Assembly: GCA_016209865.1 (NCBI GenBank)
Contig: JACQVL010000306.1
Span: 1 to 16,991, forward strand
DNA length: 16,991 nucleotides
Source of the DNA: Candidatus Latescibacterota bacterium
GTDB lineage: Bacteria > JAAXHH01 > JACQVL01
Direction of reading: 5' to 3'
The notes beneath the pieces were generated by a model that was not told the DNA's origin, searched no databases, and saw nothing but the letters and a program-made list of their open reading frames with translations. The first letter of the stretch is position 1, and each line of letters begins with the position of its first letter. Below are positions 3,745-16,991 of the stretch, in pieces. A program made the translations under genes and the position numbers.

Positions 3745-3801
3745 CAGGTTGAGTGATAGTGAAGTAAGGAAGTTTTTAACCTGAACCTCAACCTTAACCT
3801 T
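3745..3801. repeat. Intergenic inverted element, AACCTN family
   Basis: Four hexamer units AACCTN run from 3778 to 3801. A single inverted partner, CAGGTTGAG (3745-3753), lies on the other side of a short core and pairs with CTCAACCT at 3787-3794. The right arm overlaps the 3' end of the 4TM membrane-protein gene and supplies its TAA stop (3794-3796). It is the weakest example of the inverted-arm architecture seen elsewhere in this window. Confidence 0.55.
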
Positions 3802-4369
3802 CTTCTTCCATAATCGGAGTCGTCAGGGGCCGGGTAGAGGTTCGATGGGCCATCATCCGACGGCGGAGGATCAGCCCAACCAGGAGGAACAGGCACAACA
3901 CCGCCGCGCTGAGGGGGAGGGCGAGAGCAGGTCCGACGTAGGCCGTCGTGAGCTGGGCCAACCGGATGCCCACGACGCCGCCGAACAGAAACCGTTGTTC
4001 GAGCGAGAACGCCTCGATCAGGCTCGACGCCGTCGTCCCGGACACGACCGTGACGGCTCCGGTCATCAGCGACAGGATGAGCAACAGGGCATGGTGGTTT
4101 CGGAGACGGTTCCACCCGGAGAGGATGAGCATGACCGGGATGCCATACGCCCAATACCCGAACGCTAAAAACAGGACGGAGGATAGGATGGCTCCCGCCC
4201 GCCCGCCGGCATTCAGGGCGTTCTCCGCCTCCCGGCTGGAATTCGGATAATCGTTCGCCGAATAGGTCAACAGACTGACGACGACGAGTCCCGCCAGGAG
4301 AAGGAACAGCAGCCCGACGAGTCGATTCCGATGCTCAATCGCCCGACGACCCTGCATGGGAGTTGACAT
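3794..4369 (-). CDS. Stand-alone FtsK/SpoIIIE-type 4TM N-terminal membrane domain
   Basis: This 191-aa membrane protein has about four hydrophobic segments: residues 18-37, a GAILSSVLFLAFGYWAYGIPVM region at about 58-82, about 93-112, and about 142-168. The layout (basic N-terminus, first TM, a SANDYPN loop, then an NAGGRAGA segment) is the FtsK_4TM pattern that anchors DNA translocases at the septum. The RecA-like motor and the gamma DNA-reading domain are absent: the ORF stops after a short basic tail, MEEEG, and an S8 protease gene follows. It could be a truncated ftsK or a free-standing anchor. No Shine-Dalgarno precedes the ATG, which is itself formed by the neighbouring ATCCAAA repeat; M5 (4357) is an alternative start. 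The TAA stop lies in another repeat. Confidence 0.75.
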   Translation of the reverse strand: MSTPMQGRRAIEHRNRLVGLLFLLLAGLVVVSLLTYSANDYPNSSREAENALNAGGRAGAILSSVLFLAFGYWAYGIPVMLILSGWNRLRNHHALLLILSLMTGAVTVVSGTTASSLIEAFSLEQRFLFGGVVGIRLAQLTTAYVGPALALPLSAAVLCLFLLVGLILRRRMMAHRTSTRPLTTPIMEEEG

Positions 4370-4468
4370 TTTGGATTTTGGATTTTCAATTTTGGATTGA
4401 ACCCCATTGACCGTGCTCGTCTCACGTCACCCTGTCTGGAATCCAAAATCCAAAATCTAAAATCCAAA
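4370..4468. repeat. Intergenic inverted element, ATCCAAA heptamer family
   Basis: The left arm (4370-4397) is four 7-bp units read as ATCCAAA on the minus strand, one of them variant. The right arm (4441-4468) is four units in the opposite orientation: ATCCAAA, ATCCAAA, ATCTAAA, ATCCAAA. The core (4398-4440) is 43 bp and unlike the arms. The arms could fold into a 28-bp stem with a few mismatches. The element fills the whole gap between the unknown 184-aa gene (stop at 4474-4476) and the 4TM gene (ATG at 4367-4369). Confidence 0.85.
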
Positions 4469-4473
4469 ATCGA

Positions 4474-5028
4474 TCAATGACGGCTGTTGCCCGGCACGTG
4501 AATACACCACAGGCTGGGGATGAGGTGTCCATTGAAGATCTCATGGATGGCGAATTTCAACGACGCCATGTAGCTGTACTTATGCCCGGCGCTGGGGAAA
4601 TCACCGGCGACGATCTTGGGGTCTCGCAGAAAGAGCGACAACAGCAGACAGCTCACCCCGTACGGGGAGATCGTGTTCTCCCGGTGAGGGTCGAACAGGT
4701 TCGGGACGACGATCTGATCCTTGAATTCTTCGGCGAACTTTTTCCCGAAATACGAGGCACGGAAGTCCGGGTTAAACTTGCCGAGCATCGCCTTCTGCTC
4801 AGGCGTGAAGTCGAGGGTCTGTTTCCCTTCGCGATAGGCTTTGGCCCACTCCTTTAGCGCCTGGGTGAGGACCGGGACGACTCGCGCCGTCGTCCCCTCG
4901 CCAGCCCTCTCGAAATGCCAGTTCAGGTCGAACGTGGCCATGTCGAACTGATCATCGATGGCCAGCGATCCCCGTCCCATGTGTCGATGATATTCTTGTT
5001 GTCGTCGAATCTCGTCCGCAACCGCCAT
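4474..5028 (-). CDS. Conserved-looking soluble protein of unknown function (184 aa)
   Basis: I do not recognise this protein. The start at 5026-5028 (MAVADEI...) is chosen because a strong GGAGGAG lies 6 nt upstream. An in-frame ATG at 5163 would make it 45 residues longer but overlaps the TPR gene and lacks such a site. The protein has no signal peptide or membrane segment. It is mixed alpha/beta with a helical, charged middle (residues 52-105, including EFKDQIVVPNLFD at 101-113) and an aromatic, His-containing end (HKYSYM at 149-154, SLWCIHVPG at 172-180). It starts 59 nt after the TPR lipoprotein stop in the same direction, so it is probably in the same transcript. The stop is followed within 5 nt by the ATCCAAA repeat arm. 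Confidence 0.75.
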   Translation of the reverse strand: MAVADEIRRQQEYHRHMGRGSLAIDDQFDMATFDLNWHFERAGEGTTARVVPVLTQALKEWAKAYREGKQTLDFTPEQKAMLGKFNPDFRASYFGKKFAEEFKDQIVVPNLFDPHRENTISPYGVSCLLLSLFLRDPKIVAGDFPSAGHKYSYMASLKFAIHEIFNGHLIPSLWCIHVPGNSRH

Positions 5029-5087
5029 ACCTGGCTCCTCCTTCAGATATACGGCATACAGCCCTGAACGGGTGCATGTCCGCTTCG

Positions 5088-6023
5088 TCACCGGTTCCGG
5101 TATTTCTCCAGGTTCCGTTTCGCGCTCGTATTCGTCGGCTCGATACGGAGCGTATCCTGCCACGTCGCGATCGCACTGTGATAGTCCCCGGATTGGGCAA
5201 ACGCGCGACCCAGGTTGTTGTACGCCTCGACGTAGAACGGATCGATGTCTATCGCCGTCCGGTACGCCACGATGGCCTCGTCATACCGGCCGAGGTCGGT
5301 GTAGAGATACCCGAGGTTATTGTGCGCTTCGGCCAGGCCGGGGTCGAGCCGGCTCGCCCGGTACAACGCGGCGATCGCCTGGGCCATCTCCCCCTTATAG
5401 TAGAGGACAACTCCGAGGTTATTGTACACCATCGCGTAGGCTGAGTCGACCTCAACAGCACGCGTGTACAGCGCGATCGCCCGGTCGAGGTCATCCGTGC
5501 GACTCGCTTCCTCGGCCAGAGAGTACGCCCGGATGTTGAAGTTGCCCGACGAGACTTCGAGGGCGAATTTGAAGTTCTGCCTGGCTTCTCCGTACTCAGG
5601 ATCGAGAGCGAGCGCGCGCTGGTACGCCTCGAGTGCCTGAGCGTACTGGCCGCGCTTGAACGCGATGTACCCGACATTGTTGTACGCTTCGGCGAATGAG
5701 GGGTCGAGCTGGATGGCTCGCCCAAACTCCACCACCGCCCGGTCGTAGTCATCCCGCTTAAAATACCCCAGACCCAAGAAATTATGCAACCGAGCGTTCT
5801 GAGGCTGGCGTTGCGACGCCCGGTTCCACGACTCGATCGCTCGTATGTACTCCCCACGGGCGAACGCATCGATTCCGTCGGCGACCAGGTCTTCAGCGTC
5901 GAGCGATACCGTCCCCATCCGGTCGGAGCTGCCCGATCTCTGGGAGGCAGCACATCCCAGCGAGAGCAAGAACACCACCCCGATGAGTAAAGAAACCTGA
6001 TGGAATGTTCTCAATGGTATCAT
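5088..6023 (-). CDS. TPR-repeat lipoprotein
   Basis: This 311-aa exported lipoprotein has an N-terminal hydrophobic signal (about residues 9-20) and a lipobox SLGC with acylated Cys24. About seven tetratricopeptide repeats follow: residues 42-75, 76-109, 110-143, a diverged stretch at 144-162, then 163-196, 197-230, 231-264 and 265-298. Typical TPR positions are clear (AYNNxGxxxFxxGxYxxAxxxYxxALxLDP). TPR lipoproteins are protein-interaction scaffolds in the periplasm or at a membrane; the partner here is unknown. The gene starts 44 nt after purQ on the same strand. The binding site is weak (AAGG close to the ATG). A TTG at codon 4 would also keep a working signal, so the exact start is uncertain by three codons. 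Confidence 0.88.
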   Translation of the reverse strand: MIPLRTFHQVSLLIGVVFLLSLGCAASQRSGSSDRMGTVSLDAEDLVADGIDAFARGEYIRAIESWNRASQRQPQNARLHNFLGLGYFKRDDYDRAVVEFGRAIQLDPSFAEAYNNVGYIAFKRGQYAQALEAYQRALALDPEYGEARQNFKFALEVSSGNFNIRAYSLAEEASRTDDLDRAIALYTRAVEVDSAYAMVYNNLGVVLYYKGEMAQAIAALYRASRLDPGLAEAHNNLGYLYTDLGRYDEAIVAYRTAIDIDPFYVEAYNNLGRAFAQSGDYHSAIATWQDTLRIEPTNTSAKRNLEKYRNR

Positions 6024-6067
6024 GCCTTATCCAGATTGTCAACGAATTTTTCGAGGACGAGAGAAAA

Positions 6068-6868
6068 TTACAGATTCTCCTTCACATACCGGACCGCGTT
6101 CTGGAAGATAAACAGCCCGTCCGGCTGCGCGTTGCACGGCTCCCGCGTCCAGCGCGGATGGTGCGTCGGATGGGTGTGCCGCTCCGGGTGGGGCATCAGG
6201 CCGAAGAGACGGCCGGTGGTGTCACACAACCCGGCGATGTCCTCGACCGACCCGTTCGGGTTCCAGGGGTACGGGACTCCATCCGTCCCGGTCGCCCCCG
6301 GTGGACACGTGTACCGGAGCGCGACCTGCCCGCTCGACCGGAGCCGGTCGAGGACGGCGTCCGACTGGGGCACGATCTTCCCCTCCCCGTGAGCAACGGG
6401 CATGTAGACCGTCTCCGGCATCGACCGGGTGAAGACACACGGACTCTCCGGGTTGGGCTGGAGGTAGACCCATCGGCACTCGAACTTCCCGGAATCGTTG
6501 AAGAACACGGTCGCCTCCTGCACCCGGTGTCCTGGCCGCGTCTCCGGGAGGAGGCCGATCTTGACGAGCACCTGGAACCCGTTGCACACCCCGAACATCA
6601 GCTTGCCCGCCCCGATAAACCCCTCGACTTCGTCCAGCAGTTTCAACCGGAGTTCGTTCGCCAACACTTTCCCGGCGGAGATATCGTCCCCATACGAGAA
6701 CCCGCCGGGCAGCATCAGGATGTCATACTCCGACAGCCGGCGGCGACCCGCGATGAACTCGTTGATGTGCACCAGATCGACCCGGTCCGCGCCCGCTAAG
6801 ACGAACGCGTGGACGGCCTCGTGGTCGCAGTTGATCCCGGCGGCGCGAAGGACAAGGACGGAGGGCAT
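6068..6868 (-). CDS. purQ: Phosphoribosylformylglycinamidine (FGAM) synthase subunit PurQ, glutaminase
   Basis: PurQ releases ammonia from glutamine and passes it to PurL for step 4 of de novo purine synthesis (FGAR to FGAM). The 266-aa protein is a class I glutamine amidotransferase. Nucleophile C95 lies in FGVCNGFQ, and H227 and E229 lie in GLMPHPERH. GGFSYGDD (55-62) and HGEGK (160-164) are also family motifs. It is somewhat longer than the B. subtilis enzyme. The start at 6866-6868 (MPSVLVLRAAG) is set by AGGAG with a 9-nt gap and by the family N-terminus. An in-frame ATG at 6952 would only translate repeat sequence. It follows purL after a 226-nt gap filled by an AGTGACG element. Confidence 0.96.
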   Translation of the reverse strand: MPSVLVLRAAGINCDHEAVHAFVLAGADRVDLVHINEFIAGRRRLSEYDILMLPGGFSYGDDISAGKVLANELRLKLLDEVEGFIGAGKLMFGVCNGFQVLVKIGLLPETRPGHRVQEATVFFNDSGKFECRWVYLQPNPESPCVFTRSMPETVYMPVAHGEGKIVPQSDAVLDRLRSSGQVALRYTCPPGATGTDGVPYPWNPNGSVEDIAGLCDTTGRLFGLMPHPERHTHPTHHPRWTREPCNAQPDGLFIFQNAVRYVKENL

Positions 6869-6907
6869 GGAAGGACGCTCCTGGAAGGGAAACGTTGAGA
6901 CACTATT

Positions 6908-7086
6908 AGTGACGAGTGACGAGTGACACGTGACGAGTAGACCCAAGAACATTGAGCATAATCGAACTCCTGATGTGGCGATTCAGCTGTCCAAGCGGCC
7001 CTCTATTCCTGCTCAGTCGGCTGCTGGGACGTAGGACGACTGACTATTTGCCTTTAACTCGTCACTCGTCACTGGTCACTCGTCAC
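6908..7086. repeat. Intergenic inverted element, AGTGACG heptamer family, copy 1
   Basis: The left arm (6908-6938) is tandem AGTGACG-type units. The right arm (7057-7086) is the same units inverted (ACTCGTC ...), including the variant AGTGACC also seen in copy 2. The core (6939-7056) is 118 bp and shows no gene or match to the other cores. It fills the purL-purQ gap, starting about 8 nt after the purL stop. The purQ binding site lies outside the other arm. Confidence 0.85.
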
Positions 7087-7094
7087 CGCTTTTC

Positions 7095-9527
7095 TCACCA
7101 TCGCAACGGCCGCTGCCAGGCCCCTTTGAGGGCGTCGATGTCTGACGACACCAGCAGCCGGCCGGCCAGTCCGGTCACGCGGAACGTCCGGTCAGCCGTG
7201 ATCTCCCCGACGCGACCGAACGGGCAGTCGTGCAGGAATTCCTCGACATGGCGTTCGTTTCCCCGTTTCACTTCTGCGACAAACCGGCTGTTCGATTCAG
7301 AGAACAGGGCGATGTCATTCCGGACGACGTCATCCGTCCGTGGGAGCGCGCTCAGGTCGAGGGTCAGGCCGAGGCCGCCCGCGAACGCCATCTCCGCCGC
7401 GGCCACCCCTAAGCCGCCGTCCGAGCAGTCATGACAGGCGGCGATGAGGCCGGCCGCCATCGCGGCGTGGAGCCCGGCCATCGTGCGCTTCCCCACGACC
7501 GGGTCGACGATCGGGACGGTGTTGCCGGTGAACCCTCGGAGCCGGTAGTACTGAGAACCGCCCAGCTCGTTCCGCGTCAGGCCGACGACGTAGACGGGGT
7601 CGCCGGGCGACTTGGCGTCCATCGAGACCGCCTTCTTGACGTCGTCGAGCACACACAGAGCGGAAATCAACAGGGTCGGCGGGATGGCGATCGTCTGCGT
7701 CCCGTCTGAGAATTCGTTGTAGAAACTGTCCTTCCCGGAGATGAACGGGGTGCCGTACGCGACGGCCATCTCGTAGCAGGCGCGCGCCGCCCGGACGAGC
7801 ATGCCTAACCGGTCCGGCTTGTCCGGGTTGCCCCAGCAGAAGTTATCGAGCAGGGCGGTGCGGTCGACCGACCCGCCGACGCAGGTGACCTGCCGGAGCG
7901 CCTCATCGATCCCGGACGCCGCCATCCAGTAGGGGTCGATGTCCCCGTAGAACGGGTTGATCCCGTTCGCCACGATGATCCCCCGGTCGGATGTCAGCAC
8001 CGGCCGGACGATGGCCGCATCCCCCGGCCCGTCGTTCATCACTCCTTGGAGAGGCTTCAGAGCGCTCCCCCCCTGGACTTCATGATCGTACTGACGGACG
8101 ACCCATTCCTTGCTCGCCACCGTCCAGGCGGACAGGAGGCCGGTCAGGCTCTCGGTCAGGTCGGACGGGTCGGCGAACGCCGGCTCCGGGTGCTGGGGCC
8201 GTTCCCAGACCGCTTTCCGGACGATCCGGGGAACCCCCTTGTGGAGGAACGTCATGTCCAGGTCGGCGACCGTCTGCCGCTCGGTCACACGGGATTCTCC
8301 CCGGTAGGTCACCCGCAGCCGCCGGTCGTCCGTGAACTCCCCGATGACCGTCGCCTGCACGTCCTCCCGGCCGCACAGGTCGAGGAGGGCGTCGAGGTTG
8401 TCGGGCGGGACGGACAGCACCATCCGTTCCTGGGATTCCGACAGGAAGACCTCCCAGGGTTTCAGTCCCCCGTACTTGAGCGGGGCGCGTTCTAAGTCGA
8501 CGATCGCGCCGGTGTCCTGTCCCATCTCCCCGATGGCCGACGAGAACCCGCCCGCCCCGCAGTCGGTGATGTTCTCGTACAGGCCGAGGTCGCGGGCCTG
8601 CAGGAGAACGTCCAGCATCTTCTTCTCCTCGATCGGGTTTCCGATCTGCACCGCGTGCGTGGACGTCGTCTCGGACGATTCATCCAGCTCGATGGAGGAG
8701 AACGTCGCCCCGTGAATGCCGTCCCGGCCGGTCTTGCCGCCGATGACGACGATCAGGTCGCCCGGCCGGGTGCGCTTCGCGCAGCGATCCTTCGGGATGA
8801 GACCGGCGGTGCCGCAGTAGACGAGCGGGTTGCCGAGGTAGCGGTCATCGAACAGGATGGCGCCGTTGACAGTCGGGATGCCCATCCGGTTGCCGTAATC
8901 CCGGACACCCGCCACTACCCCCTTGAAGATGCGCTTCGGGTGGAGCACCCCGCGCGGGAGCCGGTCGTACGGAAAATCCGGGGGGGCGAAGCAGAACACA
9001 TCCGTGTTGAGCACCGGCTGTGCGCCCAGGCCGGTGCCCAGCGGGTCCCGGATCACCCCGCCGATCCCGGTATTCGCTCCGCCGTACGGGTCGAGGGCGG
9101 ACGGGTGGTTATGCGTCTCCACCTTGAACGCTAAGTTGTGCCGTTCATCGAACGCGATCAGACCGGCGTTATCCGAGAAGACGGACACGCACCAATCCGC
9201 CGCTCCCTTCGCCCGCCGGACCTCCTGGGTGGCCCGCTTGATCGTCTGGGCGAAGAGGTTGTCGATCACCTCCGTGCGGCCGTCCGCCGTGTACTCGATC
9301 AACCCGTTAAACACTTTATGCTTACAATGCTCAGACCAGGTCTGGGCGAGCGTCTCCAGCTCGACGTCCGTCGGGTTGCGGCCGAGTCGGGCGAAATGGC
9401 GCTGAATCGCCCGCATCTCGTCGAGGTTGAGTGCCAACAGACCGTCCCGGCTGATCCGCAGGAGATGTTCGTCGGACGCGCCGGTCAGGTCGATGATGGC
9501 GACAAGGTCGTCTGGAGGGCGGGGCAT
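7095..9527 (-). CDS. purL: FGAM synthase subunit PurL (small type), ATP-dependent
   Basis: This is the catalytic subunit of three-part FGAM synthase, which uses ATP and PurQ-derived ammonia to turn FGAR into FGAM. The 810-aa protein is of the small PurL type, without the fused glutaminase of the ~1300-aa enterobacterial enzyme. Motifs in order: TWSEHCKHK (63-71) with the conserved active-site His67; ETHNHPSA followed by GGANTGIGG, a phosphate-binding loop; GRDGIHGATFSS; DCGAGGFSSAIGEMG; SGKDSFYNE; and HDCSDGGLGVAAAEMA near the C-terminus, the second AIRS-like half. The start at 9525-9527 has GAGG with a 6-nt gap. It lies between purS and purQ, as expected for the complex. Confidence 0.97.
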   Translation of the reverse strand: MPRPPDDLVAIIDLTGASDEHLLRISRDGLLALNLDEMRAIQRHFARLGRNPTDVELETLAQTWSEHCKHKVFNGLIEYTADGRTEVIDNLFAQTIKRATQEVRRAKGAADWCVSVFSDNAGLIAFDERHNLAFKVETHNHPSALDPYGGANTGIGGVIRDPLGTGLGAQPVLNTDVFCFAPPDFPYDRLPRGVLHPKRIFKGVVAGVRDYGNRMGIPTVNGAILFDDRYLGNPLVYCGTAGLIPKDRCAKRTRPGDLIVVIGGKTGRDGIHGATFSSIELDESSETTSTHAVQIGNPIEEKKMLDVLLQARDLGLYENITDCGAGGFSSAIGEMGQDTGAIVDLERAPLKYGGLKPWEVFLSESQERMVLSVPPDNLDALLDLCGREDVQATVIGEFTDDRRLRVTYRGESRVTERQTVADLDMTFLHKGVPRIVRKAVWERPQHPEPAFADPSDLTESLTGLLSAWTVASKEWVVRQYDHEVQGGSALKPLQGVMNDGPGDAAIVRPVLTSDRGIIVANGINPFYGDIDPYWMAASGIDEALRQVTCVGGSVDRTALLDNFCWGNPDKPDRLGMLVRAARACYEMAVAYGTPFISGKDSFYNEFSDGTQTIAIPPTLLISALCVLDDVKKAVSMDAKSPGDPVYVVGLTRNELGGSQYYRLRGFTGNTVPIVDPVVGKRTMAGLHAAMAAGLIAACHDCSDGGLGVAAAEMAFAGGLGLTLDLSALPRTDDVVRNDIALFSESNSRFVAEVKRGNERHVEEFLHDCPFGRVGEITADRTFRVTGLAGRLLVSSDIDALKGAWQRPLRW

Positions 9528-9540
9528 GAAAACCTCAGTA

Positions 9541-9608
9541 AGTACGAAGGACGAAAAAGATGGTTCTCTCTTCTCTGTTTCGTCCTTTGGCCTTCGTCCT
9601 TATGTCCT
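9541..9608. repeat. Intergenic inverted element, TCGTCCT heptamer family
   Basis: The right arm (9580-9608) reads as 7-bp units TCGTCCT, TTGGCCT, TCGTCCT, TATGTCC. The left arm (about 9543-9556) is two units inverted (TCGTCCT, TCGTACT on the minus strand). The core (9557-9577) is about 21 bp and pyrimidine-rich. It fills the purS-purL gap, and its right arm supplies the last residue and TAA stop of purS (9600-9602). Confidence 0.75.
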
Positions 9609-10067
9609 ATAATACCGATACTCTTCGATAATATCATTGGCCAACAAGCGCCGGCAGACGGTATCGACGTCGGACTCCGACACCGGCCCGGCGATCACGT
9701 AGGCCCGGCCGGTCGTCGACGCGGCTACCCCCTGAATCCCCATGTCCCGGATGCCCTTGAGGGTGGTCTCCCCGGCGGCGTCCGTCACCCCAGGCCGGTA
9801 CCGGACTTCGACCCCCCACTGTCCGGGGGGCGTCTCGACGGTCGTCTCCTGGGTGCAACGGGCGTCCTGGGTGACCGGGTCGACCAGGAGTTCATGGGCG
9901 ATCCGGTGGGCGTCGTCCTTCGACAGCGTCCCGTCGAGTTCGTACAGCCGGATAAACCGCACCCGGTCGACGCCCGTGAGACCCAGGTCGGCGATATCCT
10001 GGGTGACCCCCTCGCCGACCGGGTCGACCACCCCCGGTTTGTTCGCGATCTCGATGCGCCAGATCAT
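9600..10067 (-). CDS. purS: FGAM synthase subunit PurS, tandem double-domain form
   Basis: PurS is the small accessory subunit that bridges PurL and PurQ and is normally about 80 aa. Here the product is 155 aa with two PurS-like units in tandem: residues 1-75 (IANKPGVVDPVGEGV ... IADLGLTGVDRVRFIRLYEL) and 84-155 (VRYRPGVTDAAGETT ... IRDMGIQGVAASTTGRAYV). Both keep the PGVxDxxGE and GxxGV landmarks, but their sequences have diverged well apart. The family start is MIWRIEIANKPG (ATG 10065-10067). An upstream in-frame ATG at 10151 lies in the promoter and is rejected. No clear Shine-Dalgarno is seen. It is the first gene of the purS-purL-purQ run. The stop codon comes from the adjacent repeat arm. 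Confidence 0.9.
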   Translation of the reverse strand: MIWRIEIANKPGVVDPVGEGVTQDIADLGLTGVDRVRFIRLYELDGTLSKDDAHRIAHELLVDPVTQDARCTQETTVETPPGQWGVEVRYRPGVTDAAGETTLKGIRDMGIQGVAASTTGRAYVIAGPVSESDVDTVCRRLLANDIIEEYRYYRT

Positions 10068-10122
10068 GAGCAGTGAAAAAAATCTTCTCCCTGTGGTTTG
10101 TGTCTGGTCCAATGGGGAGTTA

Positions 10123-10151
10123 AATGTAGCCATCCCCCCCGAATTTGTCAA
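10123..10151 (-). promoter_or_regulatory. Sigma-70-type promoter for purS-purL-purQ
   Basis: On the minus strand, TTGACA (10151-10146, a perfect -35) and TACATT (10128-10123, 4 of 6) are 17 nt apart. Transcription would start near 10116, giving a ~50-nt leader to the purS ATG at 10067. The spacer holds a run of seven G (minus strand). No PurR box or riboswitch was recognised in the short leader. Confidence 0.6.
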
Positions 10152-10170
10152 CCCTTAACTGAGAAAAGAC

Positions 10171-10199
10171 TTGACCAAATGGAACTTTTTAGGTATTTT
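10171..10199 (+). promoter_or_regulatory. Sigma-70-type promoter for the sigma factor gene
   Basis: TTGACC (10171-10176) and TATTTT (10194-10199) are 17 nt apart on the plus strand, with an A/T-rich surrounding that contrasts with the coding GC. A start near 10206 would give a ~160-nt leader before the sigma factor start at 10369. Its -35 lies 19 bp from the oppositely facing purS -35. Confidence 0.5.
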
Positions 10200-10206
10200 G
10201 TGGTAT

Positions 10207-10368
10207 TTGTATGAGGAAACCTGATTAACTATGTGCCTGCCTTTTGAGGCTCACCTTCGAATGCATGATCGGCCGCATGAACGACGGAAGCCTCCCCGGT
10301 GAGGGGTCACCAGGACGGCTTGTGTCGTTCTCCTGTGTGGTAGAGGTGTGTGAGGGAGGTGACAAGCG
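10207..10368 (+). promoter_or_regulatory. Long leader of the sigma gene: small ORF, anti-SD stretch and strong SD
   Basis: The leader ends in a strong Shine-Dalgarno, GGAGGTGA (10355-10362). A possible 23-codon ORF (ATG 10231, TGA 10300-10302) ends in the codons CCT CCC CGG TGA. CCTCCC (10291-10296) is fully complementary to GGGAGG (10354-10359), and GTCACC (10307-10312) to GGTGAC (10358-10363), so either could mask the ribosome binding site. A competing CCCC/GGGG hairpin (10294-10297 with 10303-10306) would exclude the first pairing. The pairings are seen in the sequence; a regulatory role is inferred. The small ORF has only a distant GAGGA upstream and may not be translated. Confidence 0.4.
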
Positions 10369-11235
10369 ATCAGCACTCCGTATCAAGAATCGTACACGCG
10401 GTATGAGCAATCGCTCTATCGGTACTTAGCTGAGATGTCTAAGTACCCGCTGATCTCAGCCGATGAAGAAGTCAAGCTGGCCCGGCGGATCAAACAGGGG
10501 GACGAGATCGCCATCGAGAAACTCGTCCAGTCGAACCTCCGGTTCGTCGTCAGCGTGGCCCGGCAGTACCAGAATTATGGACTCCCCCTGCTGGACATGA
10601 TCAACGAGGGGAACATGGGACTCATCCGGGCGGCCAAGAAGTTCGATGAAACCCGCGGGTACAAGTTCATTTCCTACGCCGTCTGGTGGATCCGCCAGGC
10701 GATCATCCAGGCGATCGCCAATCAGTCCCGGACGGTCCGCGTGCCGGTGAACCGTTCTGAGGAGCTGCGCAAGATCAAGCAGACGTCGCGGCACCTGCAG
10801 CATGAGCTGGGACGCAAACCGGATGTGGATGAGATCGCGGAGGAACTGGACACGTCCGTCGATGAGATCAACGAGGCGCTGAACTCCTACAGCCACTGCG
10901 TCTCGCTCGACCTGCCGTTTAACCACGACGACGACCGGAGCCTGCTGGATTTGCTCCCGGATGAGATGCAAACCTCGCCCGACGAGGCGACGATGCTGCA
11001 GTTCCTGAAGTCAGACGTCGGCCAGGTGCTGTCCACTCTGCCGGAACGGGAAGCCGCGGTGATTCGTCTGTACTTTGGGGTCGGGGCCGACCGGGCGCAT
11101 ACCCTCGAAGAGATCGGCGTCCGGTTCGGCCTGACGCGGGAACGCATCCGGCAGATCAAGGAACGCGCCCTGCAACGACTCCGTCACACCTCCCGGAGCG
11201 GCAAGCTCAGTCCGTACCTGCGAGACGACGAGTGA
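10369..11235 (+). CDS. rpoD: Primary-type RNA polymerase sigma-70 factor (RpoD/SigA-like), probable ATC start
   Basis: It directs RNA polymerase to -10/-35 promoters. Counted from ATC 10369 the protein has 288 residues, without region 1.1, like Bacteroidetes primary sigmas. Region 1.2 is YEQSLYRYLAEMSKYPLIS (residues 12-30). Region 2 includes LVQSNLRFVV, LDMINEGNMGLIRA and FISYAVWWIRQAI (100-112). Region 3 spans about 129-200. Region 4 has the LPEREAAVIRLYFG segment and the HTH with RERIRQIKERAL (258-269). The first ATG (10435) would start in the middle of region 1.2 and has no Shine-Dalgarno. The frame is open from a TGA at 10360 with no ATG, GTG, TTG or CTG before 10435. ATC at 10369 lies 9 nt after GGAGG and gives a natural N-terminus (STPYQES). 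A conservative annotation would be 10435-11235. Confidence 0.93.
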   Translation: MSTPYQESYTRYEQSLYRYLAEMSKYPLISADEEVKLARRIKQGDEIAIEKLVQSNLRFVVSVARQYQNYGLPLLDMINEGNMGLIRAAKKFDETRGYKFISYAVWWIRQAIIQAIANQSRTVRVPVNRSEELRKIKQTSRHLQHELGRKPDVDEIAEELDTSVDEINEALNSYSHCVSLDLPFNHDDDRSLLDLLPDEMQTSPDEATMLQFLKSDVGQVLSTLPEREAAVIRLYFGVGADRAHTLEEIGVRFGLTRERIRQIKERALQRLRHTSRSGKLSPYLRDDE

Positions 11236-11262
11236 GGCTGGGAGGGTCGAAGGAGTAGACCG

Positions 11263-11502
11263 ATGAGTGACAACGAATCCAAGCACCACGGTGGTGTTCT
11301 CTTCTTCATCGGCCTGGTCATCGCCGTCCTGGTCGGCCTGGTGATCGGCCTCCTGATCGCGCCCCACAGCGGGCCGGTCATGCGCCGAAAGATCCTGCGG
11401 ACGGCGGGGGAAGCCAAGGACCAGATGTCGGAAGTCCTGGACGATCTGGAAGAGAGCGGGAAAGAATTCCTGAGCGACGTCAAGCGGGTGAAGAAAGTCT
11501 GA
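11263..11502 (+). CDS. Small YtxH-domain membrane protein
   Basis: The 79-aa protein has one N-terminal membrane segment (about residues 12-32, LFFIGLVIAVLVGLVIGLLIA), then the YtxH signature APHSGPVMRRKIL (33-45) and a charged helical tail. YtxH proteins are small membrane-anchored proteins linked to general stress in Firmicutes; a molecular function is not established. AAGGAG lies 7 nt before the ATG. It starts 27 nt after the sigma gene and is followed by a strong terminator, so the two form an operon. A pairing of a sigma factor with a YtxH protein hints at an envelope or stress link, but this is inference. Confidence 0.85.
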   Translation: MSDNESKHHGGVLFFIGLVIAVLVGLVIGLLIAPHSGPVMRRKILRTAGEAKDQMSEVLDDLEESGKEFLSDVKRVKKV

Positions 11503-11525
11503 CGAAAGGGTTGTGCATGATCGAA

Positions 11526-11564
11526 GCCCCGGCAGAGGGTGAGCCTCATCCTCGTCGGGGTTTT
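11526..11564 (+). terminator. Intrinsic terminator of the sigma/YtxH operon
   Basis: CCCCGGC (11527-11533) pairs with GTCGGGG (11554-11560, one G-U), and inside it GAGGGTGAG pairs with CTCATCCTC to form a long stem. TTTT (11561-11564) follows at once. It lies 24 nt after the YtxH stop and before the AGTGACG element, and would also insulate secA from upstream transcription. Confidence 0.85.
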
Positions 11565-11575
11565 CCGTTAAGAGC

Positions 11576-11715
11576 AGTGACGAGTGACGAGTGAGAACCA
11601 GCGGAGGGGCAGGGGGGCAGAGGAGCAGGGGAGGAAAAAGAAGATGGTGTCATTCCCGCGAAGGCGGGAATCCATTTTGTTTTACTCGTCACTCGTCACT
11701 GGTCACTCGTCACTG
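11576..11715. repeat. Intergenic inverted element, AGTGACG heptamer family, copy 2
   Basis: The left arm (11576-11595) and inverted right arm (11684-11715) are built of AGTGACG units, with the AGTGACC variant in the third position as in copy 1. The core contains a G-rich, roughly 8-bp periodic tract (11603-11634, GGGGCAG-like units) and then an ATTCCC hairpin (11652-11671). On the right side the arm ends about 10 nt before the secA binding site. From the hairpin through the right arm it closely matches copy 3 read on the minus strand. Confidence 0.9.
11652..11671. repeat. dRS3-like hairpin nested in copy 2
   Basis: Perfect 8-bp inverted repeat ATTCCCGC / GCGGGAAT with a GAAG loop. It fits the neisserial dRS3 consensus ATTCCC-N8-GGGAAT. 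The flank reads GTGTC before and CCATTTTG after, and the same flanks occur in copy 3. Confidence 0.9.
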
Positions 11716-11738
11716 CTTTCTCAGAGGTAGTTTCTCTC

Positions 11739-14700
11739 ATGTTCGACAAATTGCTCGCCAAAGTCTTCGGGACGAAGCATGAGCGGGATATCAAGCGGCT
11801 CCATCCGATCGTGGAGGACATCAACGCCTGGGCGGATGAGTTCCAGGGGCTGACGGATGCCCAGTTCCCCGACAAGACGGCGGAGTTCCGCCAGCGCTTA
11901 GCCGAGGGGGAAACTCTCGACGACCTGCTGCCCGAGGCCTACGGTCTGGTCAAGGAAGCCTGCCGGCGGATGGTGGGGCGCTCGTGGGACGTCCGCGGCC
12001 AGGCGGTCACCTGGGCGATGGTGCCGTACGATGTCCAACTGATCGGGGCGATCGTCCTGCACGAGGGGAAGATCGCGGAGATGGCGACCGGGGAAGGGAA
12101 GACGCTCGTCGCCATCATGCCCCTGTACCTGAACGCCCTGACCGGCCGCGGGGTGCACCTGGTCACGGTGAACGATTATCTGGCGAAGCGCGACCGGGAA
12201 TGGATGGGGCCGATCTATGAATTCCTCGGCCTGACCGTCGATTGCTTAGAGACGAACGACTATGACATCGGACGGAAACAGCGAGCGTACCGCGCGGACA
12301 TCACGTACGGCACGGTCAACGAATTCGGGTTCGACTACCTCCGGGACAACATGAAGCTCCGCTTAGAGGACCGGGTCCAGCGGGATTATTACTACACGAT
12401 CGTGGACGAAGTCGACTCCATCCTCATCGACGAGGCTCGGACGCCGCTGATCATCGCGGGCGAAGTGCGGGAGTCGAACAGCGAGAAGTACGGCGAGATG
12501 AGGCCGGAGGTGGAGAAGCTCGTCCGGGCGCAGACGCGGCTGGTGACGAAGCTCATCAGCGAGGCGGAAGAACTCCTCAAGGATGAAGAGACGCAGTACG
12601 AGACGGGGATCAAGCTCCTCCAGGCCCAGCGGGGCGCGCCGAAGAACAAACGGCTGATGAAACTCCAGCAGGAGCCCGGCATCAAGAAATTCATCAGTCA
12701 GGTCGAGGCGGATTTCCTCCGGGATAAGCGGATGTCCGAGCTGGATGACGAGTTGTACTACAGCATCGACGAGAAGGGCCACAACATCGAAATCAACGAG
12801 ATGGGCCGGGAACTCCTCTCCCCCGACGACCAGCAGCTCTTCGTCATCCCCGATCTTGGCGATGAGATGCACAAGATCGACACGGATGACGTCCTGTCCG
12901 ACGCGGAGAAAAACCGTCACAAAATGGAGCTGGAGGCGCTGTACGCCGACCGAAGCGAACGCATCCACAACCTCGTCCAGTTGCTCCGGGCCTACTCCCT
13001 GTACGAGCGCGACGTCGATTACGTCGTCGAGAACGGCAAGGTGATCATCGTCGATGAGTTCACCGGGCGTCTGATGTACGGCCGGCGCTACGCCGAAGGC
13101 CTCCACCAGGCGATCGAGGCGAAAGAAGGGGTGAAGATCGAGCAGGAGACGCAGACGGTCGCCACGATCACCATCCAGAACTACTTCCGGATGTACGAGA
13201 AGCTGGCAGGGATGACCGGGACGGCGGAGACGGAGGCGGGGGAGTTCTACCAGATCTACAAGCTCGACGTCGTCGTCATCCCGACCAACCAGCCGGTCCG
13301 GCGGATCGACTACGAGGACGTCATCTACCGCACCCGCCGGGAAAAATACAACTCCGTGCTCGACGAGATCGAGGAGCTGCACACCCAGAAGCGGCCGGTG
13401 CTCGTCGGCACGACCTCCGTCGAGGCGTCCGAGACGCTCAGCCGGATGCTTACCCGGCGCGGCATCAAGCACAGCGTGCTGAACGCGAAGTTCCACCAGC
13501 AGGAAGCGGAGATCATCGCCCGGGCCGGCCAGCCGGGGGTGGTGACGATCGCCACGAACATGGCGGGCCGGGGGACGGACATCAAGCTCGGCTCCGGCGT
13601 CGTCAAATGCGAGCAGTGCCACCTGAACAACAGGGAGCCGCTCGACACACCCACCGCCGACGGCCTGACGCTGAAGGACTGTTACGAGAACGTCCCGTGC
13701 GGCCTGCACATCATCGGCACCGAGCGGCATGAGGCCCGCCGGATCGACCGCCAGCTCCGCGGACGGTCCGGCCGGCAGGGCGACCCGGGGTCGTCCCGGT
13801 TCTACCTCTCCCTCGAAGACGACCTGATGCGGTTGTTCGGGTCGGAACGGATCGCCTCGGTCATGGACCGCCTGGGGATTCAGGAGGGCGAGGTGATCGA
13901 GCACTCGATGGTGACCCGGTCGATCGGACGGGCGCAGAAACGGGTGGAGGCGCATCACTTCGACATGCGCAAACATCTGCTGGAGTACGATGACGTGATG
14001 AACCAGCAGCGGGAGGCGGTCTACGACCGCCGGCTGCACGCCCTCGAAGGGAACGACCTCCGGGATGAGATCATGGAGATGATCGGCGCCACGGCGGACC
14101 GCAAGGCCGCCCAGTACTCCGACCCGAAGACGTACCCGGAGGAATGGGACCTGGACGGGCTGAGCGTCGACCTCCTCCGCACCTTCCACGTCGCCTTCCA
14201 CGTCGGACCGGACGAGCTGGAGACGCTGACGCAGGAAGGACTTCTCGAGTGGGTCCGGGAAGCGATGGTCGGGGCGTACGAGCGCAAAGAGGGCGCGTTC
14301 ACCCCGGACATCATGCGCCAGATGGAACGGTTCGCCACGCTCCGCGTGATCGATGAGCGCTGGCAGGAACACCTGTACGAGATGGACCACCTGAAGGAGG
14401 GGATCGGCCTTCGGGCGTACGGCCAGACGGACCCGCTGATCGCGTACAAGAAAGAAGCGTTCGCGATGTTCGAGGAGTTGTGGGATCGGCTGGATGAGGA
14501 GATCCTGAGCCTGATTTACAAGGCTGAACTGACCGAAGTAGAGCCGTCGCGCCGCCGGACGCCCTCCCGGCTGCAACTCATCCATCAGGAAGCGCAGGGG
14601 ATGGTGGCGGGGGCCGCCTCGTCCGGGGATGACGGGCAGAACGGCCGGGCGGTCGCGCAGGAACAGCCGGTCAAGAAGCAACCGGTCCGCGTGGAGAAGA

Positions 14701-14780
14701 AAGTCGGCCGGAACGATCCCTGCCCGTGCGGGAGCGGAAAGAAGTACAAAAAATGCCACGGCGCGGCGACGGTGGCGTGA
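11739..14780 (+). CDS. secA: Preprotein translocase ATPase SecA
   Basis: SecA drives secretory proteins through the SecYEG channel by ATP hydrolysis. The 1013-aa protein has Walker A MATGEGKT (115-122), Walker B DEVD (223-226), a peptide-crosslinking domain from about 240 to 385, TAETEAGEF at 495-503, [12 protein letters not shown] (607-618), [24 protein letters not shown] (661-684) and the helical scaffold/wing domains to about 935. A C-terminal zinc-binding motif [13 protein letters not shown] (C995, C997, C1006, H1007) contacts SecB or ribosomes in other species. The PPXD is about 50 residues longer than in E. coli, as in FCB-type SecAs. An insert at about 620-655 adds four cysteines (C624, C627, C648, C654). 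GAGG lies 11 nt before the ATG. The stop is one base from the stop of the convergent acyl-CoA dehydrogenase gene. Confidence 0.98.
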
Positions 14781-14781
14781 C

Positions 14782-15978
14782 TCACCGATACGCCTCGTAT
14801 TCCCGTCCGAGCACGTCCACCGCGATCTTCTGCTCTAAAATCTCGTTCGTCCCCTCGTAGATCTGTGTCACCCGCGAATCGCACTCATGCCGGGCCACCC
14901 GGTATTCGAGGGAGTAGCCGTTCCCGCCGAACACCTGGACCGCCCGGTGTGCGGCGTCGAAGCAGGCGTTCGTGGCGACGTACTTCGCCCGGGCGATCAT
15001 CGCATCCGCCCGGGATCGCAGCTCCCGGTTGTCCGGTTCCTGATCCCACTTCATCTTCGCGTACGCGGCGGCGTACGTCAGATAGCGGGCCGCTTCCAGG
15101 TTGGCGCTGATGAGGCCGATGTGCCGCTGGACGAGCTGATGCTTGGCGATCGGCTTGCCGTGCTGCACCCGCTGTTTGGCATAGTTGACCGCCTCGTCCA
15201 GACAGTCCTGCATCGTCCCGACGCACCCGGCGGCGACGCTCAGCCGGCCGCTCATCAGCGTCGTATACGCCACCGTCAGCCCCTGCCCCAGCCCTCCGAG
15301 CAAGTTTTCCTTCGGCACGATGCAATCGTCGAAGTAGATCATCCCCGTGTCCGATGTGGTCAGCCCCATCTTATGGAGGTGCTTCTCCGTCCGGTAGCCG
15401 GGAGAGTCGAATTCGACGATGAACGCGGAGATCCGGTCGTCCCGCTTATCACGGGCGTAGGCGGTGATGACGTGCGCGATCGTCCCGTTCGAGATCCACT
15501 GCTTGCTCCCGTTGAGCTTGTAATAACCCCCGCAGTCCTCGAACGTCGTCCGGAGAGAGGCGGGGTCGCTCCCGGCGGTAGGCTCCGTCAGGGCGAACGC
15601 CATCACCCAGTCGCCGGCGGCCACGCGGGGCAGGTACCGCCGTTTTTGCTCGTCCGTCCCCCATTTCTGGATGGTCAGCGCCCCGATCGATAGGTGGCCG
15701 GAGAAGAACGTGCGGACAGAGCTGCCTTCGCGGCCGATCCGTTCGAGGGCGAGGGCGTACGTCATCAAGTCCGCCCCCTCGCCGCCGTACCGTTCGTCGA
15801 TGGGCAGGCCGGTCAGATGGGCACGTTTGGCGATCTCGACGACCTGGTCGTTGTACCGCCCTTCCAGGTAGCACCGGTCTTCGATCGGACGAATCTCCTG
15901 GCAGGCTTTATCGACGACCTCAAGGAGCGCCCGCTGTTCCTCTGAGATGTCGAAGTTCATGATGGAGAGGTTTTCCAT
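14782..15978 (-). CDS. Acyl-CoA dehydrogenase family protein
   Basis: This FAD flavoprotein oxidises acyl-CoA thioesters to 2-enoyl-CoA, passing electrons to ETF (beta-oxidation or branched amino acid breakdown). The 398-aa protein has the three-domain ACAD fold: an N-terminal helical part (about 8-125), a middle beta domain with AFALTEPTAGSD (127-138) and KQWISNG (159-165), and a C-terminal helical domain with RAVQVFGGNGY (345-355). YEGTNEI (374-380) holds the likely catalytic base E375, at the position used by short- and medium-chain enzymes. The chain-length class cannot be read from sequence. The start at 15976-15978 (MENLSIM) has GAGGA about 8 nt upstream. M7 (15960) lacks a site. An in-frame ATG at 16053 would only translate repeat sequence and is rejected. 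Confidence 0.95.
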   Translation of the reverse strand: MENLSIMNFDISEEQRALLEVVDKACQEIRPIEDRCYLEGRYNDQVVEIAKRAHLTGLPIDERYGGEGADLMTYALALERIGREGSSVRTFFSGHLSIGALTIQKWGTDEQKRRYLPRVAAGDWVMAFALTEPTAGSDPASLRTTFEDCGGYYKLNGSKQWISNGTIAHVITAYARDKRDDRISAFIVEFDSPGYRTEKHLHKMGLTTSDTGMIYFDDCIVPKENLLGGLGQGLTVAYTTLMSGRLSVAAGCVGTMQDCLDEAVNYAKQRVQHGKPIAKHQLVQRHIGLISANLEAARYLTYAAAYAKMKWDQEPDNRELRSRADAMIARAKYVATNACFDAAHRAVQVFGGNGYSLEYRVARHECDSRVTQIYEGTNEILEQKIAVDVLGREYEAYR

Positions 15979-15997
15979 AGCAGGATTCCTCAAAAGC

Positions 15998-16124
15998 AGT
16001 GACAAGTGACGAGTAAAGCAAGATGGATTCCCGCCTTCGCGGGAATGACACAATGTTCTTTCCTCTGGTGCTCTTTCTCCACTGCTCGTCTTTACTCGTC
16101 ACCCGTCACTTGTCACTCGTCACT
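15998..16124. repeat. Intergenic inverted element, AGTGACG heptamer family, copy 3
   Basis: The left arm (15998-16014) has AGTGACA and AGTGACG units. The inverted right arm (16094-16124) has four units and runs into the 3' end of the DUF6807 gene. The core holds the ATTCCC hairpin (16027-16046), in the opposite orientation to copy 2, followed by CT-rich sequence. It fills the gap to the acyl-CoA dehydrogenase start; that gene's GAGGA site lies about 10 nt beyond the left arm. Confidence 0.88.
16027..16046. repeat. dRS3-like hairpin nested in copy 3
   Basis: ATTCCCGC / GCGGGAAT with a CTTC loop: the exact reverse complement of the hairpin at 11652-11671. The shared flanks (GTGTC and CCAT on the minus strand) show it is the same unit in inverted orientation. 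Confidence 0.9.
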
Positions 16125-16991
16125 GAAATATTCGGCGGATTAATGTACCCGTGGTAGACATCCGCCACGCGCCCTTGTGTCGCATCCCCGACGTGGATGT
16201 AAACGCGGTACGCGAAGACCAGCCGCTCGCCGGCCGGCAAGGTGTACGCCCCGGACTGGCGAGGGTCGTTCCGGAACGTGCCCGTCCCGAACGGGTTGGT
16301 GGCCATCAGACCGTAATCCCGGACGTGCCAGTAGGTGGGGCTCCGGAAGGTGTCAGGATGCTCCATCACCGCGATGCCCGACCAGCGGCCGTCGACCGGC
16401 CCGGAATAATCGCACCACGGGGCGCGCCGTCCCCAGGACTCCGCTTCCCCGATCGCCCCGTAGCCGTTTTCGATCTTCCCGCCGCGGACCGCGTCCATCG
16501 ACGTGGCCACGCGGATGGAGAGGAAGCCCCCCTCTTTCGTGTCCCCAAAATGGACATCCCCGTGCGTCGCCTGAAGCTCGACGGTCAGGTCGAACAGCCG
16601 GACGGGATGCGCGCCGGGATGATAGAATGTGAAGTCTCGAGTCTCGTCGAGCAAGACGGTTCCGTCGGCAGCCGTCCAGTCGCTCCGGGCGCGAAGCCGA
16701 CCGAACACCGGCCCGCTCACGAGCGTCTCGAACGCGCGGTGGACCGTCCGGCCGTGTTTCCCTTCCTCGCCCCAGTTGTCCGTCCCGTTCACCTCTCCGT
16801 ACGCCGTCCACAGCGACCGGTGGTGGATGTGATCCGTCGTCTCCCCGGCCTTCTCACCGATGCTCGCCCGTGTGACTGAGGCCCCGAACGCGTCGTTCAC
16901 CGGAGCGCAGAACGGACGGACGAGGTGTCGCCCGAAGTGGTAGGCGGTGAACAGTCCGCCCGCGACCCGGACCTCGACCCGGTCGTCCGGC
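16106..16991 (-). CDS. DUF6807 (PmoA-like) family protein, N-terminus beyond right edge
   Basis: The frame stays open to the window edge, so the true start is outside. A GTG at 16900 is internal, because the family motif YHFG ... RPFCAPVNDAFG reads straight through it. Other motifs typical of DUF6807 are TDHIHHRSLW, NWGEEGKHGR, EGGFLSIRVA, PWCDYSGPVDGRWSGIAVMEHPDTFRSP and WHVRDYGLMATNPF. The family (Pfam PmoA) was once labelled methane oxygenase but is generally treated as of unknown function; it is common in Planctomycetes, Bacteroidetes and Poribacteria, often near sugar-related genes. The last five residues (VTSDK) and the TGA stop (16106-16108) are encoded by a repeat arm, so the original C-terminus has been replaced or extended. 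Confidence 0.88.
   Translation of the reverse strand, partial: PDDRVEVRVAGGLFTAYHFGRHLVRPFCAPVNDAFGASVTRASIGEKAGETTDHIHHRSLWTAYGEVNGTDNWGEEGKHGRTVHRAFETLVSGPVFGRLRARSDWTAADGTVLLDETRDFTFYHPGAHPVRLFDLTVELQATHGDVHFGDTKEGGFLSIRVATSMDAVRGGKIENGYGAIGEAESWGRRAPWCDYSGPVDGRWSGIAVMEHPDTFRSPTYWHVRDYGLMATNPFGTGTFRNDPRQSGAYTLPAGERLVFAYRVYIHVGDATQGRVADVYHGYINPPNISVTSDK

Follow-up and report, generated by a model that had tools for sequence, protein, structure and literature searches.

The window analyzed here, a stretch of 16,991 nt that makes up contig 275 (JACQVL010000306.1) of the Candidatus Latescibacterota bacterium assembly GCA_016209865.1, carries paired arrays of short tandem repeats at its gene junctions. 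In each element, a left arm and an inverted right arm, built of 7-nt units, flank a core. The source genome is a 3.75-Mb draft in 356 contigs and is 83% complete. A first-pass annotation of the window had proposed six such elements. We recovered five of them, while the sixth (3745-3801) proved to have a C-rich hexamer array on its right side only.

The first element has a G-rich left arm of ATTTTGG units at 4368-4398 (plus strand, 31 nt), a 41-nt core at 4399-4439 and a C-rich right arm of AATCCAA units at 4440-4471 (minus strand, 31 to 32 nt), which ends 3 nt from the stop codon of a minus-strand gene (4474 onward). The second, in AGTGACG units, has a G-rich left arm at 6908-6938 (plus strand, 31 nt), a 118-nt core at 6939-7056 and a C-rich right arm (CGTCACT) at 7057-7086 (minus strand). 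It sits between the purL stop (7095) and the purQ start (about 6868), both genes being on the minus strand. Arm boundaries in these two elements were drawn from Tandem Repeats Finder (TRF), the arm listing and gene edges. The third lies at the purS/purL junction and has a left arm of AAGGACG units at 9540-9555 (plus strand, 16 nt), a 23-nt core at 9556-9578 and a right arm (CGTCCTT) at 9579-9601 (minus strand, 23 nt), the first unit of which supplies part of the purS stop codon (TAAGGACG, minus strand). The cores of these three elements had no other match in a 758-kb set composed of the window, 20 contig stretches picked for AGTGACG matches and 40 contigs taken by number.

The two remaining elements also consist of AGTGACG units in a G-rich left arm and CGTCACT in a C-rich right arm. 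In one, the left arm at 11576-11594 (plus strand, 19 nt) is followed by an 89-nt core at 11595-11683, which holds a separate dispersed hairpin (TCATTCCCGCGAAGGCGGGAATCCA) with 41 other matches, and by a right arm at 11684-11714 (minus strand, 31 nt) that ends 24 nt ahead of the secA start (11739). In the other, the left arm is at 15998-16014 (plus strand, 17 nt), the 79-nt core at 16015-16093 contains the dispersed hairpin CCCGCnnnnGCGGG in the orientation opposite to that of core 11595-11683, and the right arm at 16094-16124 (minus strand, 31 nt) extends over 16106, where the minus-strand gene 16106-16990 was called to stop. The hexamer array (AACCTN, 3778-3801, C-rich, minus strand) has no inverted partner; the left arm proposed for it did not stand out from random DNA of the window (fraction 0.06-0.25), and the RNA fold of 3745-3801 had a z-score of -0.97. 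The z-scores of the four inverted elements other than 6908-7086 were -8.6, -5.9, -7.0 and -2.9.

At a score of at least 9, the window contains seven period-7 arrays and three convergent pairs; 300 dinucleotide shuffles of the window gave on average 0.16 arrays (maximum, 2) and no pairs. AGTGACG dimers matched 16 times in the window against 0.24 expected. The prediction that such elements would be numerous in the genome was confirmed: the AGTGACG dimer AGTGACGAGTGACG, allowing at most one mismatch, matched the genome 753 times, compared with 4 times for the reversed control, and the density in the 40 contigs not chosen for repeats was about 316 per Mb for arms and 64 per Mb for convergent pairs. 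The 758-kb set contained 260 period-7 arrays, compared with 8 in a Markov-1 control, and at most 48 arrays for each of the other periods from 4 to 12. A scan of viral contigs for the AGTGACG arm gave no match.

The first-pass annotation had also suggested that different unit sequences share one architecture, and the genome scans bore this out for at least 10 unit families with a 7-nt period and inverted arms. The largest were ACGAGTG (113 arrays), AAGGACG (33), AAAATCC (32) and ACCACCG (30). In 108 of 212 arms, those of the largest family included, the unit has no GG, and GGG occurs in only 21 of 212.

We then considered the order of the two arms. Scanning family by family, we counted about 90 inverted and 7 direct neighbors, some of them under several related families; inverted arrangements thus clearly exceed direct ones, as had been proposed. 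Each family shows a single order, in which the G-rich arm is 5' and the C-rich arm is 3'. A family-free count in the 758-kb set gave 60 G-first and 2 C-first pairs, and widening it to 962 kb of the source genome gave 74 and 2. Broken down by gene context in the 962 kb, the G-first:C-first ratios were 58:2 in tandem gaps, 6:0 in convergent gaps, 4:0 in divergent gaps and 6:0 at contig edges. Five of the 60 pairs combine arms of different families, and these keep the G-first order. Single arms lying within 20 nt after a stop codon in tandem gaps were G-sense in 60 cases and C-sense in 9.

Two candidate causes of this polarity were tried and rejected. Avoidance of Shine-Dalgarno-like G-rich sequence near starts was not supported, as single arms within 40 nt of a start were G-sense in 17 cases and C-sense in 23. 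Protection of operons against Rho-type termination did not fit the polarity in convergent and divergent gaps (10:0), a limited test, since the polarity of each family is fixed. Nor can quadruplexes be the common cause, because the largest family, which lacks GG, obeys the same rules.

The heptamer arrays at gene junctions are dispersed and intergenic, and their placement is precise. In tandem gaps with two paired arms, the distance from the stop codon to the first arm has a median of 2 nt, and that from the end of the second arm to the next start a median of 18 nt. Neither the uniform G-first polarity nor this exact placement relative to stop and start codons was noted in the first-pass annotation. 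Arms measure 7n+2 to 7n+4 nt and usually hold 2 to 4 units, so that their lengths are quantized: 17, 24 and 31 nt for AGTGACG; 16, 23 and 30 nt for AAGGACG; and 24 to 25 and 31 to 32 nt for ATTTTGG. Four units fit 55 of 126 ACGAGTG arms and 22 of 35 AAAATCC arms, and differences in length from arm to arm come in whole units. Both flanks of the arms are A-rich, and AGTGACG arms are bordered by GC on their outer side.

In the ACGAGTG, AAAATCC and AAGGACG families, the outermost and innermost units are conserved and units 2 and 3 vary; AACCCCG and ACCACCG were less clear. Detection bias did not account for the conserved end units, as the detector, run on simulated arms with uniform mutation, gave a flat profile over units 1 to 4. 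Some identical internal variant patterns recurred at 7 to 10 loci, for example AGTGACGAGTGACAAGTGACGAGT 10 times and ATTTTGGATTTTAGATTTTGGATTTTGGATT 7 times. Since exact variant patterns recur in this way, the arms appear to have been copied as modules. Many arms are single, without a partner.

Partner arms belonged to the same family in 55 of 60 pairs, compared with 18.8 expected. We compared the unit variants of partners with those of shuffled partners and found no better matching in two of three families (AAAATCC, p=0.96; AAGGACG, p=0.69); the third, ACGAGTG (p=0.03), probably owes its value to an AGTGAAG subfamily that pairs with itself. A mixed-family pair did not fold (z-score, +1.2). 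Among 85 cores, 51 had no other match in the 758-kb set, and many of the others hold the dispersed hairpin CCCGCnnnnGCGGG. Core GC content was 47%, compared with about 63% for the genome.

Relatives of the source genome were compared at the pur genes. Among the 59 genomes covered by the search for relatives, no other belongs to the family of the source genome. Its nearest PurL relatives come from a metagenome-assembled genome (MAG) labeled Gemmatimonadetes (72% identity) and an unplaced MAG (64%); further labels among the closest were bacterium, Omnitrophota and Planctomycetota, with no cyanobacterial grouping. The observation of an empty site concerns one junction, purS-purL, where the genes overlap in the relative L061 or are separated by about 20 bp in the relative L062, and neither has an array. 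Between purL and purQ, L062 has nearly no gap, and the closest relative, L061, has a 9-nt tandem repeat (GTCCGAGCC-like) without heptamers at 8413-8596.

To place the polarity in a wider context, we turned to other genomes. Two counts on loci and contigs of other MAGs, made by G/C polarity alone, yielded G-first:C-first ratios of 7:0 and 6:1. A G-first order was predicted for GGATTNN units, and among 384 genomes, a tally that takes in the source genome (2 matches), there were 55 G-first matches in 11 genomes, several of them overlapping at one locus, compared with 2 overlapping C-first matches in one genome. The backward controls, which are palindromes of the TTAGGNN family set, gave 24 G-first matches in 4 genomes and 1 C-first match in one. 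Strict same-unit pairing in other phyla gave no match, and the search pattern TTGGATTN{10,40}AATCCAA was too unspecific to inform. That unrelated bacteria share the rule suggests that one process, and not the unit sequence, sets the direction of the arrays.

Several further repeats were seen in and around the arms. A dispersed palindrome, TGTCATTCCCGCGAAAGCGGGAATCCA, lies within many cores, often adjoining an A- or T-rich arm edge (in the window at 11648-11673 and 16023-16050), with about 40 matches per core in L014, L015, L020, L023, L044 and L057. Hexamer AGGTTN palindromes, also G-rich first, are nested in AGTGACG cores (L048 1092-1178, L058 9601-9683 and L052 5835-5908). Hairpins of the form GTAGGGGCG...CGCCCCTAC within or after arms represent another dispersed palindrome family (L041 3383-3572, L007 2386-2615 and L010 11013-11180). 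The ACTGCCC family differs from the other families in having a common short core, GACGGGGGAACGGCTTCT (L002 18167, L015 6841, L017 4301, L018 4436, L032 4333 and L047 6984), and may be a different kind of palindrome. Arms of different families were also seen in direct order 6 to 9 bp apart (L035 2623-2675, L044 6832-6880 and L011 5543-5593), joined by an A-rich linker (ending in GC once), as if an array had been added onto an A-rich edge. A contig end in G065 (L197 1-360) carries an array of about 360 bp in which ACGGGTT and GCGGGTT units alternate, and contigs of G013, a genome of the same order (L176 and L181-L185), contain many period-8 arrays (11 in 120 kb) alongside heptamers. Elsewhere in the window, the C-terminus (FALFQNYPNPFN...) of a subtilisin-like protease (1628-3688, minus strand) resembles by eye a type IX secretion-like sorting domain.

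Dispersed tandem-repeat modules of one general kind at gene junctions are the best explanation of these observations, and we regard its chances as about even. An arm would be a directional array, X(YX)n, of a 7-nt unit, usually with 2 to 4 units and A-rich edges, that is copied round the genome as a module and tolerated at gene junctions only. Two modules of the same family would usually face each other across a spacer with the G-rich strand inward, the first adjoining the stop codon and the second just ahead of the next ribosome-binding site. The spreading unit would then be the arm and not the whole palindrome. Slippage may change the number of units, and arrays may last longer when their inner units are interrupted, being then more stable. 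The G-first polarity could reflect a 5'-to-3' asymmetry in the way the second array is deposited or retained, for example on single-stranded hairpin DNA or a nascent transcript; we infer such an asymmetry because every gene context shows the polarity, as do families that lack G runs and genomes that are unrelated. Between tandem genes, a same-family pair would produce a strong intercistronic hairpin, which is probably a by-product but may serve mRNA processing.

Several points weigh against this explanation. No enzyme or copying intermediate was found for modular dispersal, and insertion is read from distant relatives only. That paired arms share a family without matching units is awkward for independent insertion of modules. 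The family-neighbor counts, the 60:2 polarity count and the placement, edge, covariation, core and family statistics come from the 758-kb set, which includes the 20 AGTGACG-chosen contigs, and gene boundaries were called by a simple codon-based program. Families inside one genome may derive from one another and so are not independent votes on polarity.

The first-pass annotation had offered two mechanisms, a mobile palindromic element and copying on a hairpin, and both lost ground. In a classical mobile palindrome (a miniature inverted-repeat transposable element [MITE] or a repetitive extragenic palindrome [REP]-like element), a transposase would move the whole element, with the arms as its terminal inverted repeats. 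The fixed outer edges (GC-AGTGACG), the inversion, the same-family arms, the high copy number and the empty junctions in relatives would fit such an element, but 51 of 85 cores have no other match while the arms are only a few percent off consensus, single arms and mixed-family pairs occur, and a search limited to the Y1_Tnp (RAYT, PF01797) transposase family found no such domain in the 83% complete genome. We consider this explanation unlikely. Copying of an array into its inverse partner during replication, by hairpin or slippage, would explain the same-family pairing (55 of 60) and the unit-wise length differences. It would also be expected to match partner variants and to produce both polarities, whereas the variants are unmatched, a single polarity is seen and identical patterns occur at unrelated loci, which makes it improbable.

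Somewhat less likely than a mobile palindrome, though well ahead of hairpin copying, is selection for functional RNA hairpins, in which stems between stop and start would process or stabilize intergenic mRNA and the loop would be free to vary. The very stable folds (z-scores, -5.9 to -8.6), the placement between stop codon and ribosome-binding site and the unique loops are in its favor; the lack of covariation in two of three families, the unfolded mixed pair, the many single arms and the polarity in divergent gaps are not. Telomere-like addition of G-rich repeats to broken 3' ends, which are then joined with filler DNA between them, would account for G-rich strands that point to the center, X(YX)n lengths, unique AT-rich filler and inner A-rich tails, but neither a Ku (PF02735) nor a reverse transcriptase (PF00078) domain was found in the 83% complete genome, and we give this explanation very little weight. 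The absence of the Y1_Tnp, Ku and reverse transcriptase domains is suggestive only, as the assembly is incomplete. A G-quadruplex function or constraint, considered by Rehm 2015 for the Xanthomonas GGGAATC repeats, which have the same layout and form quadruplexes in vitro (PMC4692102), is the least probable of all: it is contradicted as a general cause by the 108 of 212 arms that follow the same rules without GG in the unit.

Dispersed modules remain the preferred explanation. A polarity rule that spans many units and genomes separates the cause from the sequence, leaves quadruplexes insufficient and offers a simple signature by which any genome could be surveyed. It is possible, though we propose it only tentatively, that one 7-nt-measuring, 5'-to-3' polar DNA process underlies the G-first gene-edge rule for arbitrary units across unrelated bacteria. 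If so, bacterial heptamer repeats would be products of one process, either a new class of selfish arrays or a new kind of DNA extension at gene junctions. The arrays also bear on annotation, since they provide stop codons and occupy the operon junctions of core genes, purS-purL-purQ among them.

Among known systems, the short tandemly repeated repetitive sequences (STRRs) of cyanobacteria, which PMC4692102 mentions, comprise several heptamer families between the genes of a single genome. The first-pass annotation had drawn this comparison, which is apt in that multiple intergenic heptamer families occur here as well; the closest PurL relatives of the source genome, however, do not group it with cyanobacteria, and the Xanthomonas repeats are closer. 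REP and REPIN sequences and palindromes tagged with GTAG or CGTC are likewise dispersed and intergenic, but as far as the accessible parts of these reports go (PMC3733652 and PMC3116915), they are short unit palindromes with tagged ends, with RAYT transposases for the GTAG types, and tandem heptamer arms are not described. MacGregor 2015 (PMC4679880) reported TAACTGA arrays at gene junctions and, between two cyanobacterial strains, insertions or deletions in multiples of 7 nt. In contrast to the arrays described here, the TAACTGA repeats of Beggiatoaceae form one family, are nearly all direct with one indirect repeat only and lie mostly just upstream of starts (PMC4679880).

The closest precedent is the study of Rehm 2015 (PMC4692102), in which the convergent G-rich-strand layout was already seen for one family, the GGGAATC repeats of Xanthomonas, and no function was found. 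That study also noted that heptamers are over-represented among short tandem repeats in many bacterial genomes, for a reason not known, and that convergent pairing is rare among the GGGGA(C/T)T repeats of Nostoc. The repeats described here resemble these in their dispersed, intergenic 7-nt unit, their preference for about four units and their convergence on the G-rich strand (74:2). The layout itself is thus not new in kind. The Xanthomonas and Nostoc genomes, however, each have one G-rich, quadruplex-forming family, whereas at least 10 families occur here and the largest lacks GG. Our analysis adds unit covariation, core uniqueness, edge conservation and polarity across genomes, and a limited search of the mainly open-access literature found no paper stating such a polarity rule across genomes or for multiple unit families. 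New here are the rules shared by many seemingly unrelated heptamers within a single genome, most of which lack canonical quadruplex ability, and a polarity that, once predicted, held in other genomes as well.

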